Shown here piece after piece: positions 21,081 through 23,911 of a stretch of DNA of 64,000 bases. The position numbers were made by a program, and so were the translations under genes. The number at the start of each line of letters is the position of its first letter. The stretch's first letter is position 1. Origin of the DNA: Cellulomonas wangsupingiae (GTDB lineage Bacteria > Actinomycetota > Actinomycetes > Actinomycetales > Cellulomonadaceae); assembly GCF_024508275.1 (NCBI RefSeq), contig NZ_CP101989.1, positions 868,001-932,000 of the forward strand, given 5' to 3'. The notes below the pieces were generated by a model that made no database searches, had not been told where the DNA came from, and saw nothing but the letters and a program-made list of their open reading frames with translations.

Positions 21081-22109
21081 GTGAGCAGCGCGCACGTCGT
21101 CGTCGACCGCCCGGGCACCTACGCGTACCACCGCCTGCAGCGGACCCGGCCGGGCACCTGCTGGTGGCGGCCGCTGGTCGTGGGGGTCGTCGCGCTGGCG
21201 CTCTACGTGGTGCTCCTGGCGGTCGGGGGCGTCCTGGTGCTCGTCGCCGCGGTCGCGTCCGGTCCGGGCGGGACGGACACGCTCGCGGCCCTCGACGTGG
21301 CCGACTTCACGGACCCCCTGGCCTTCGCGCTCGGGATGCTCACGATCATCGCGATGATGCCCGCCGTGCTCGTGGCCACGTGGCTGCTCGGCGCCCGGCC
21401 GGTCGGGCTGCTCGTGTCCGTCGCCGGGCGCGTCCGGTGGGGGTGGACGGCGCGGTGCCTCGGTGTGGCGGCGGGGCTCGCGCTCCTGCTGAACGGAGGC
21501 GACGCGGTGCTCGCGGCGCTCCGCGGGCAGGCGTGGGAGCCGCAGGTGACCGCCACCTCGTGGCTGCTGGTCGCGCTCGTCGTGCTGCTCGTGCCGGCGC
21601 AGTGCGTCGCGGAGGAGGTCGTGTTCCGCGGCTACCTCGTGCAGAGCGTCGGGACGTGGCTGCGGCACCCCGCCTTCGCGATCCTGCTGCCGGTGCCGCT
21701 GTTCGTGCTCGGGCACACCTACGTCAACCTCGCCATGGTCGACACCGCCGTCTGGGCGACGGCGATGGGCTGGCTCGTATGGCGAACGGGTGGTCTCGAG
21801 GCCGCCGCGGCGGCCCACGTCGTCAACAACGTCACCGTGTTCACCCTGGGCGCCGTGGGCCTGGCCGACCTCGACCTGGTCGACATCGGGCCGGTCTCCC
21901 TCGCGGTCTCGACGGCGTCGACGCTGGCCTACGTCGCACTGGTCGAGGTGCTGGTCCGGCGCACAGGACTGCCCACCGTGCGGGTGGTGCGGGGCGCCTC
22001 CCCGGCCGCCGCCCCCGGCGCCGTCGGGGCCGCCGTCGGGGTCCTGCCCGCACCGGCCCCGCCGTCCGGGTCCGGTCCTGTCACAGCCGCGACGTCACCC
22101 CGGCCGTGA
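21081..22109 (+). CDS. CPBP family intramembrane metalloprotease
   Basis: A 342-residue multi-pass protein. The three family motifs are present: EEVVFRGYL (EExxxR) near residue 178, FVLGHTYVN (FxxxH) near 210 and HVVNN (HxxxN) near 247. They build the zinc-type active site in the membrane. The GTG at 21081 was chosen because the frame upstream has no protein-like character. A 47-base gap separates it from the HTH-TPR regulator, so the two may be linked, for instance in peptide processing. Confidence 0.85.
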   Translation: MSSAHVVVDRPGTYAYHRLQRTRPGTCWWRPLVVGVVALALYVVLLAVGGVLVLVAAVASGPGGTDTLAALDVADFTDPLAFALGMLTIIAMMPAVLVATWLLGARPVGLLVSVAGRVRWGWTARCLGVAAGLALLLNGGDAVLAALRGQAWEPQVTATSWLLVALVVLLVPAQCVAEEVVFRGYLVQSVGTWLRHPAFAILLPVPLFVLGHTYVNLAMVDTAVWATAMGWLVWRTGGLEAAAAAHVVNNVTVFTLGAVGLADLDLVDIGPVSLAVSTASTLAYVALVEVLVRRTGLPTVRVVRGASPAAAPGAVGAAVGVLPAPAPPSGSGPVTAATSPRP

Positions 22110-22114
22110 CAGGA
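22076..22114. promoter_or_regulatory. Inverted repeat before the HTH-TPR regulator
   Basis: TCCTGTCAC (22076-22084) and GTGACAGGA (22106-22114) are perfect 9-bp arms with 21 bases between. The element covers the stop codon of the protease and ends 42 bases before the regulator start. It may be an autoregulatory operator or a hairpin. Confidence 0.45.
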
Positions 22115-22156
22115 GTCCAGGTCGCCCTCTTTCGCGCGGGGGAGAGGCTGCCTATC

Positions 22157-23461
22157 GTGAGAGCCGTGCACCCCGTGAGTGAACGCATCCGTGACGCACG
22201 TGAGCGCTGCGGCCTGTCGCAGGCGGACCTCGCGCGCGCGGCCTCGATGCACCCCAGCTACGTCTCGCACCTCGAGCGCGGCGTCCGCGGGCCGGGGGAC
22301 GGCGCGCTCGAACGGCTGGCCCGCGCCCTGGGGGTCACCACGACCTACCTCGAGCAGGGTGAGCGCTCACCCGCGTACGTGGCGTCCGAGGCGTCGGTCG
22401 TGCGCGCCCGTCAGCTCGTGCGCGCCGGCCGGGCCCGTGAGGCGGTCACCGAGCTCGAGACCGTCGACCTCGACGCGCTCGACGTCGACCAGGCCGCGCG
22501 GGTCCTGCTCGCCCGCTCGGAGGCCCTGGACCTCGCCGGGGACCTCGAGGCCTCGGCGCGGCTCCTGGTCGAGACGACCCGCCTGCTGACGCAGGGACAC
22601 CGCCCCCAGCGTGCTGCCTACGCGGCGACGCGCCTGGTCATGGCGCTGACCGAGGCCGACGACCTGCACGCCGCGGTGCGCGTCGGTGAGGAGCAGCTGG
22701 CGGCGCTCGCGCAGGGCGCGGCGGGCACCGACGAGATCTTCCGCCTCGAGTCCACGCTGGTCTGGGCCTACGTGGCCCGCGGCGACGTCACGTACGCGCG
22801 GGTGCGCGGGACGGACCTGCTGTCCCGTGCACTGGTCCACGGCTCGGCCCGGGCCGTGTGGTCCGTGCACTGGAACCTGGCGTTCGTCGACGACGCGCTC
22901 GGTGACGCGCAGGACGCGCTGGCGCACCTGCACGCCGCGCTCGCCCTCGCCGGCGGCGCCGAGGCCGACCGTGACGTCCCCCGGCTCCGCCTCGACCTCG
23001 CGCACCTGCTGCTCGCTGTCGTCCCCGCCCGCCCGCGGGAGGCGCTGCTCGAGCTCGACGCCGCGGGCACGGCCCTGGAGGTCGGCGAGTCACGGGTCGA
23101 GCTGGCGCGCTCGGCGACCATCCGGTCCCGCGCGCTGCTGATGCTCGGCGACCACCGTGCCGCCCTCTCGCACGCGTCGCGGGCCGTCGAGATGCTCTCC
23201 TCCGGAGAGCGACGGGACGCGGCCGCGGCGCACGAGGCGCTCGGGGACGCCCTGCTCGCGTCGGGCGAGCGGACGGCGGCGATCAAGGCGTACCGGCAGG
23301 TCGCCGACCGGCTCGACCTCGTCCCGGCGGGACGTCCGTCGGCCGTCGCCTGGCGGCGCGTCGGCGACCGGCTGCGTGCGGCGGGGGACGACCGCGCACG
23401 CGTCGCCGAGGCGTACCGGCGTGCGCTCGACGGCGCCGGGGTGGGCACCACGCGCCGGTGA
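22157..23461 (+). CDS. HTH (XRE/Cro-type) regulator with TPR-like domain, RRNPP-like architecture
   Basis: A 434-residue protein. GTG at 22157 has GGGGGAGAGG nine bases upstream; GTGs at 22166 and 22175 are alternatives. The HTH spans about residues 8-65 (GLSQADLARAASMHPSYVSH then LERGVRGPGDGALERLARAL). The rest is a chain of helix pairs rich in Ala/Leu with TPR character (ARVLLARSEALDLAGDLEAS, RVAEAYRRALDG). This HTH-TPR layout is that of RRNPP sensors (PlcR, NprR, Rgg) that bind secreted peptides. The next gene encodes a 39-residue secreted peptide, which makes a sensor-peptide pair plausible. It is unproven: HTH-TPR proteins of other roles are common in actinobacteria. Confidence 0.75.
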   Translation: MRAVHPVSERIRDARERCGLSQADLARAASMHPSYVSHLERGVRGPGDGALERLARALGVTTTYLEQGERSPAYVASEASVVRARQLVRAGRAREAVTELETVDLDALDVDQAARVLLARSEALDLAGDLEASARLLVETTRLLTQGHRPQRAAYAATRLVMALTEADDLHAAVRVGEEQLAALAQGAAGTDEIFRLESTLVWAYVARGDVTYARVRGTDLLSRALVHGSARAVWSVHWNLAFVDDALGDAQDALAHLHAALALAGGAEADRDVPRLRLDLAHLLLAVVPARPREALLELDAAGTALEVGESRVELARSATIRSRALLMLGDHRAALSHASRAVEMLSSGERRDAAAAHEALGDALLASGERTAAIKAYRQVADRLDLVPAGRPSAVAWRRVGDRLRAAGDDRARVAEAYRRALDGAGVGTTRR

Positions 23462-23791
23462 CCCCCGGTGGGCCGTGAGGCCCACGCCCGACGGCCAGGA
23501 CCCGACGCAGGCGTCCCGCGCCGTCGTCCGCCGGCCGCTGCCGGGACGCCCCGGCGTGCACCGGGGACCGGCTCCGCGGTCGTCCGCGCCTCCTCGACGG
23601 GGTCGCGCACGACCGTGCGATCGGCGTGCGCGGAGGGGGTCGGGTGCCGCAGAACTGCGACACGCCCGGACAAAGTCGGACTAGGGAGTGTCTACGCGGT
23701 CTTCGCCGAAGTCATTGCGGTCGAGACATCCGCGTGGGGAACATTCCGGAGTGCCGGACGTCCCGGCACCTCGTCCCGAAGGAGATCCACC
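23462..23791. other. 330-base gene-free stretch before the peptide gene
   Basis: No protein-like frame beyond chance opens here. The second half (23660-23760) is less GC-rich than its surroundings and probably holds the peptide promoter. Visible elements are the small inverted repeat CTTCGCCGAAG (23701-23711) and GACAC/GTGTC arms near 23660 and 23689. No strong terminator is seen after the regulator. Confidence 0.4.
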
Positions 23792-23911
23792 ATGAAGAAG
23801 CTCACCGTCACCCTCGTGGTCGCCGTCCTCTCCCTCGCCGGTGTCGCCGGTGCCTCCGCGGCCTCGGCCGCCCCCAGCACGGCCCTGTCGCCCTGCTGCA
23901 AGTTCGTCTGA
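23792..23911 (+). CDS. Tiny secreted peptide precursor, candidate signalling peptide
   Basis: A 39-residue precursor with an excellent ribosome site (AAGGAG, 23779-23784) nine bases before ATG 23792. The N-terminus starts MKKLTVTLVVAVLSLAG and continues to an Ala-Ser-Ala stretch ending near residue 26, a textbook Sec signal peptide. Cleavage after ASA would leave about 13 residues, APSTALSPCCKFV. It lies downstream of the HTH-TPR regulator on the same strand. The good start region and intact signal peptide argue against a chance ORF. It could be a pheromone for that regulator or a small wall-acting peptide. Confidence 0.7.
   Translation: MKKLTVTLVVAVLSLAGVAGASAASAAPSTALSPCCKFV

Follow-up and report, generated by a model that had tools for sequence, protein, structure and literature searches.

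The genes for an HTH-TPR regulator and for a tiny, putatively exported peptide with a double cysteine near its end, which adjoin each other in the window (the whole 64-kb stretch of DNA analysed here, G000:C1:868001-932000, part of one 4.1-Mb contig), almost certainly form a functional unit, judging from how consistently they are found together. An earlier note on this DNA had read them as a regulator-peptide pair with RRNPP-like logic, and co-conservation supports that reading: the two probably make up a peptide-signalling circuit of RRNPP logic that uses double-cysteine peptides, the peptide being the regulator's ligand. This candidate system extends far beyond the genus, and the recurrence of the pairing across many actinobacteria suggests an undescribed form of peptide communication. 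The two genes and their nearest signals are as follows.

22157..23461, plus strand: HTH-TPR regulator, candidate peptide receptor (from Pfam, AlphaFold2 and orthologue N-termini)
22153..22158, plus strand: -10-like TATCGT (from sequence; by eye, 10 of the 13 group A loci have it at this position)
23792..23911, plus strand: mini-peptide gene of 39 codons, its start signal-peptide-like and its tail SPCCKFV (from sequence; co-conserved with the regulator)
23778..23784, plus strand: ribosome-binding site GAAGGAG (from sequence)

The regulator had been described as a 434-residue XRE-HTH and TPR-like protein, and both the domains and the open frame (22157-23461, 434 aa) stand, with HTH_3 (PF01381, E 2.6e-15, residues 11-65) and TPR_2 (E 1.9e-6) above the Pfam cut-offs; it is the length that probably needs amending. 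Because orthologues align from VHPVSERI onwards and TATCGT (22153-22158) overlaps the first GTG of the frame, the more likely start is the GTG at 22166, which would give 431 aa and a leaderless transcript. The AlphaFold2 model is all-helical (mean pLDDT 92.2) and, together with Pfam, gives the HTH plus C-terminal TPR superhelix by which RRNPP(A) receptors are recognised. Its predicted superhelix resembles the structures of Rap, NprR and PlcR, Rap being among the best bacterial matches, and eukaryotic TPR proteins match it better than do RRNPP receptors; the fold is predicted to be of a kind that binds peptides. RRNPP-specific sequence models represent just part of RRNPP, and none in Pfam or NCBIfam matched the regulator up to E 1, only general HTH and TPR models doing so, which is why we do not class it as a member. 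We rate the present system as a variant of the RRNPP-like kind, set apart from RRNPP membership.

The peptide gene follows the regulator after ~330 bp. Its frame, from the ATG at 23792 to a stop that ends at 23911, encodes 39 aa with a charged start and a hydrophobic core, so that the features pointed out before (a 39-codon ORF, its strong ribosome site, a start resembling a signal peptide and a Cys-Cys end) can all be read directly in the DNA. A small gene for a putatively exported pro-peptide (export being judged, at all loci, from hydropathy only) next to the receptor gene is another hallmark of RRNPP(A) systems that this locus shows. One fixed filter returned eight signal-like mini-ORFs in the 64-kb window, and the one at 23792 alone has CC in its last 12 residues. 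Under a simple AxA rule, the mature part measures ~7 to 31 residues in 19 peptides. PCCK is unchanged across 16 aligned peptides of the window's own group (group A), and it is this CC tail, the most constant feature of the peptides, rather than the hydrophobic core that is conserved. Peptide genes also occur in tandem, four each in L012 and L013 and five in L205, where they are consecutive (L205:3168-3992, in G818) and have the tails CCKAQF, CCKTQF, CCK, CCK and CCKTIES.

The earlier note had staked the pairing on conservation of the peptide beside orthologues of the regulator, and this is what a census of 208 distinct regulator sequences, each counted once over 349 loci (ten of which entered via a peptide search), revealed. 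A mini-ORF selected by length, hydropathy, one K or R close to the start and CC close to the end (criteria that varied slightly between scripts) lies within 400 nt of 161 of the 208 regulators. It accompanies all 27 regulators at least 54% identical to that of the window, 77 of the 78 others with at least 500 profile bits (the sole exception, L111, has one frame containing several copies), 28/33 at 300-500 bits, 21/30 at 200-300 bits and 8/40 of the most distant, below 200 bits. Among the closer clades, then, the link is almost complete, and it weakens as the regulators become more distant. The five regulators at 300-500 bits that fail the filter are those of L202, L203, L289, L305 and L049, the last having a 74-aa CC frame under a looser rule. 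Other scans, whose locus sets share genomes, agree: all 30 loci returned by a regulator search in 58 genomes have an adjoining signal-like Cys-Cys mini-ORF, and a scan of 76 loci detected the regulator in 74 and the CC mini-ORF in 72 of these (62/64 once the ten peptide-search loci are removed). The cysteine pair is concentrated in the vicinity of the regulator, where 40 neighbourhoods contain 41 CC mini-ORFs, compared with none among 51 signal-like mini-ORFs in the far flanks of the same neighbourhoods (438,561 bp). At 61 class-level loci, the corresponding figures are 44 of 76 signal-like mini-ORFs within 400 nt vs 1 of 26 beyond 600 nt. High GC does produce many spurious frames, but the likelihood that the mini-ORF is a chance open frame is close to nil, since its place, start, ribosome site and tail are conserved, which refutes the idea at the level of conservation.

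Two main groups emerge from the search of 58 genomes. In group A (L001-L013, 58 to 100% identity to the window regulator), the peptide gene lies downstream of the regulator on the same strand and its product ends in PCCK plus zero to few residues; in group B (L014-L028, 38 to 43% identity), it lies upstream on the same strand and the tail is mostly G..GCCR or GCCK. Each of the 27 genus genomes that belong to group A has at least two regulator matches, and the window's own genome also has a group B locus (L056, G000:C1:2516987-2518279; peptide tail GSGCCKDFV). With 44 further genomes set aside for their weaker matches (E as high as 1), 29 of 81 genus genomes contain a strong group A peptide match, its best E being at most 2.2e-10; a regulator adjoins it in 27. 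The other two are G031 (L172:6245-6367, ending SPCCKAT), in which no regulator was detected, and G821 (L173:683-805, ending SPCCKAK), with none on its 3,424-base contig. These might be signal producers lacking a receptor, just as L202 (G817) and L203 (G810), which have divergent family regulators and no adjoining CC mini-ORF under the filter, might be receivers lacking a signal. A peptide in G031 with no detected regulator is hard to reconcile with a type I-like membrane toxin restrained by the HTH protein, a very improbable reading for which a short hydrophobic N-terminus adjoining an HTH gene could be cited, and which conservation of the tail rather than the hydrophobic core further contradicts.

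Beyond the genus, a profile built from 11 regulators found family members in at least 25/396 genomes of the order and at least 24/396 of the phylum (both at E 1e-20), and, within the class (at 1e-25), in at least 52/296 genomes, representing at least 27 of the 115 genera sampled; the genome tallies are lower bounds because only the best four or five candidates per genome were scored. Among L031-L060, 28 of 30 loci have a CC mini-ORF (L054 and L055 have none). At class level, it is found in 42 of 61 loci (a tally including at least one doubtful case, L316, at 656 nt from the regulator), mostly divergent from the regulator, and the peptides often end in bare CC (PGMCC, GDFCC, PPTCC, VWCC). At phylum level, only 3 of 24 loci have one (L072, L075 and L076), the other 21 being without. 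Eight distant phylum-level loci (L061-L066, L069 and L070) have tiny signal-like frames beside the regulator that contain no cysteine; their tails, W/P-rich or proline, include GFPWPK, GYPWPK, KWPWG and NWPHH. Named genomes contributed 73 loci, most of them from Cellulomonas and others from Cellulosimicrobium cellulans DE0111, Pengzhenrongella frigida, Streptomyces sp. SID12488 and Sphaerisporangium sp. TRM90804, and every one of these loci has a CC mini-ORF within 2.5 kb. Such a frame adjoins the regulator in Streptomyces (L287), one ending AGCC lies upstream in Nonomuraea gerenzanensis (L349), and none was found near the regulator in Streptomyces NBC_01176 (L348). Second paralogues (family f105) in genomes of 7 to 11 Mb (L331-L339) are without a CC mini-ORF.

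In a tree of 56 regulators, four of the groups defined by gene order and by the type of peptide tail (A, C, E and G) are clades with a support of at least 0.99, these two traits thus tracking the receptor clade; group B is recovered with a support of just 0.19, and neither group F (W/P tails) nor the mixed group H is monophyletic. Peptide pN/pS is 0.35 in one group B set, 0.86 and 0.68 in two group A sets and, in the window's subgroup, 0.99 across the predicted tail and 1.01 across the final ten codons. We read the peptide as a fixed core around which the code changes, or more plainly, as showing what looks like weak constraint on the rest. A broader idea, which we hold to be evenly balanced between right and wrong, is that Actinomycetes have a widespread family of secreted peptides with vicinal Cys-Cys at or near their end (PCCK, GCCR, GMCC, DFCC, VWCC) that are read by dedicated cytoplasmic HTH-TPR receptors, with the Cys pair as shared recognition core, possibly redox-gating the signal (disulfide outside, reduced inside), and the surrounding residues as the private code of each clade. 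A cysteine pair is unusual in a peptide needing re-import, and we know of no other double-cysteine pheromone. The chief rival, unlikely in our view, makes the peptide a secreted effector with thiol or metal chemistry (copper, zinc, redox protection), its gene being the conserved target of a regulator sensing something else. A Cys-Cys near the C-terminus suits such chemistry, the constancy of CC agrees with it and tandem copies would raise the dose. However, the residues next to CC and the tail type vary with the receptor clade, which a general chelator would not need, and the eight distant frames ending PWPK, WPHH or similar have no CC at all.

The promoter regions of the two genes contain the following elements.

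22094..22110, no strand: operator-like palindrome GTCACCCCGGCCGTGAC, GTCA-N9-TGAC, upstream of the regulator (exact in all six of L001-L006)
23711..23727, no strand: operator-like GTCATTGCGGTCGAGAC, one mismatch to GTCA-N9-TGAC, with GTCATTGC block, in the peptide promoter region
23689..23694, plus strand: TGTCTA block in the peptide promoter region (GTCTA at -97 to -105 in 21/21 group A leaders)

A candidate operator site is common to the regulator and peptide promoters of Cellulomonas loci, which would suit a ligand gene under auto-regulation and, in favour of the effector explanation, also a target gene. In the 56 promoter regions (regulator and peptide) of 28 group A and B Cellulomonas loci, GTCA-N9-TGAC is exact in 34 and has at most one mismatch in 49, including all 28 peptide promoter regions; it is missing from seven regions, all of them regulator promoters (L007-L013). 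By comparison, 200 mononucleotide shuffles gave a maximum of one exact and seven with at most one mismatch (an overstatement of significance, since the sequences are related), and other gaps (3 to 17) gave at most six exact. In 13 further loci of the order, the site is exact in six and came top in an unbiased scan of 256 half-sites x 12 gaps, a scan that is not fully independent because, of these six, L040, L042 and L045 fall in the group B clade and L051 and L052 are near-identical. It is exact in none of the 61 class-level loci (12 have it with one mismatch), so operators probably differ among clades, and in none of 19 phylum-level loci. In group B, the palindrome appears to cover the -10-like region of the regulator promoter.

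Two other candidate operators were rejected. The 9-bp inverted arms seen before the regulator (TCCTGTCAC, 22076-22084, and GTGACAGGA, 22106-22114) are present in the window, but the operator role does not survive comparison, the left arm being absent from the 130 nt upstream in the five closest orthologues (L002-L006) and the inner palindrome alone being conserved. TGTCTA-N29-AGACA matches perfectly at the window locus only and, with at most two mismatches, yields 23 forward and 13 reverse matches vs a higher count (38 and 27) for the reversed-pattern control. Genome-wide, GTCA-N9-TGAC occurs at no fewer than 83 places vs 14 for its control (coding and intergenic pooled), and TGTCTA-N16-GTCATTGC is perfect at the peptide locus only, with 76 places vs 33 for its control at up to three mismatches; because of these outcomes, no regulon is named.

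The leader of the peptide gene offers a possible second layer of control, in the form of a conserved structure.

23751..23769, plus strand: 5' leader hairpin GTGCCGGACGTCCCGGCAC, just before the ribosome site (consensus in 23 aligned leaders)

In these 23 leaders, three of seven consensus pairs are changed on both sides, one pair in ten sequences, with a small covariation term (-0.55, a figure with no shuffle control behind it), and Rfam has no match to the hairpin or near the locus. All 21 folded leaders of group A first copies have GTCTA and then, 21 to 22 nt on, GTCATTGC, which is missing from the later tandem copies shown for L007, L009 and L011-L013. The stretch 23740-23791 in the window corresponds to the conserved structured leader of first-copy group A peptide genes, and in folds computed for individual leaders, the ribosome site is often paired with a GGGACC block further upstream.

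Following RRNPP logic, the circuit might run as follows: (i) the mini-ORF would give a pro-peptide that is exported through Sec and then cleaved after the signal peptide (for the window's peptide, perhaps between ASA and APSTALSPCCKFV), (ii) the signal would be the C-terminal stretch around the double cysteine, (iii) the mature peptide would be taken up again by an oligopeptide importer, perhaps using one of the five oligopeptide-binding proteins (SBP_bac_5) encoded in the window genome, (iv) it would bind in the TPR superhelix of the cytoplasmic regulator and (v) it would alter the regulator on GTCA-N9-TGAC sites in its own and the peptide promoters, resulting in density-dependent auto-regulation. 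Since the group B palindrome seems to sit over the -10-like region of the regulator promoter, our first guess for the direction of control would be repression relieved by the peptide.

Such a circuit would be a relative, in logic, of several known ones. PlcR-PapR and NprR-NprX belong to the Bacillus cereus group (Bacillota), whereas the present system is found in Actinomycetota, has a double-cysteine tail, a GTCA-N9-TGAC site and often a divergent gene order, and differs in that its regulator matches no RRNPP-specific Pfam or NCBIfam model. Rgg-SHP and ComR-ComS of streptococci have very short pro-peptides adjoining the regulator gene, and are echoed by the W/P-rich tails of some distant loci, in contrast to the classic signal-peptide-like start seen here and the Cys-Cys of most closer members. 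Rap-Phr and AimR-AimP likewise combine a TPR receptor with an exported peptide; Rap, unlike the present regulator, has no HTH, and AimR-AimP is phage-borne, unlike the present family, to which a phage collection offered only one short match (17% of the query, residues 4-76) and a plasmid collection two. Most of what is known about cytoplasmic peptide quorum sensing comes from Firmicutes, and if the peptides are signals, they would provide Actinomycetota with a genetically encoded, synthesisable signal family, and would make talk by linear peptides in actinobacteria, and what these control, directly testable.

The portions of the literature consulted are in keeping with this. RRNPP has been described as a Firmicutes system, actinobacterial signals being typically small molecules (PMC10075063, in part), and RRNPPA prevalence has been assessed among Firmicutes (PMC9765709, in part). 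Cell-cell signalling is known in the same phylum from the gamma-butyrolactones of Streptomyces, small molecules where the present candidate signal is a peptide, and the excerpts of the same review list cyclic or modified peptides and gamma-butyrolactones as actinobacterial signals, contain no regulator-peptide pair and come from a main text in which RNPP, oligopeptide and Cellulomonas are absent (PMC4748050, in part). A literature search with a scope that excluded preprints and most subscription papers returned no description of such actinobacterial pairs among the matches listed. Several pheromone pro-peptides per system, tandemly duplicated, are on record for RRNPPA (PMC11343458, in part), to which L012, L013 and L205 may be likened, with the difference that here each pro-peptide would have its own small gene.

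A CPBP membrane protease, which the earlier note had cast as part of the system, is indeed present upstream in the window (PF02517, E 2e-15, frame read from 21081), but its role as a system component falls: it adjoins the regulator in only 5 of 11 group A neighbourhoods (the window and L085-L088) and has no tblastn match in the six other 17-kb group A regions (L089-L094), so it was rejected as a constant maturase. A crude neighbour comparison (frames of at least 90 aa in 41 regions) revealed no second family-wide cluster, the regulator cluster being present in 33 regions and the next in 11. By Pfam name, none of 18 neighbour proteins scanned is a metal or thiol protein, and among just these 18 there is no match to an AgrB-like processing protease or sensor kinase, as would mark a system of Agr-type thiolactone peptides. 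The effector explanation finds no partner in this picture, and lack of a family-wide cluster also leaves no constant gene for immunity, modification or export, of the kind expected if the peptide were an antimicrobial or bacteriocin-like product under a regulator of its own. This last idea, improbable to our mind, is suggested by a peptide that is small, fast-changing and sometimes duplicated and that has a signal-like start, and it is further weakened by the shortness of the mature part. Peptide signalling stays the preferred reading. As for individual neighbours, L089 in group A has MFS, TetR and dehydrogenase genes upstream, and 11 group B loci have a divergent gene cluster upstream of the peptide, assigned by Pfam to the EAL domain in L095 (L095:9673-11236), which could possibly represent a c-di-GMP output of the circuit.
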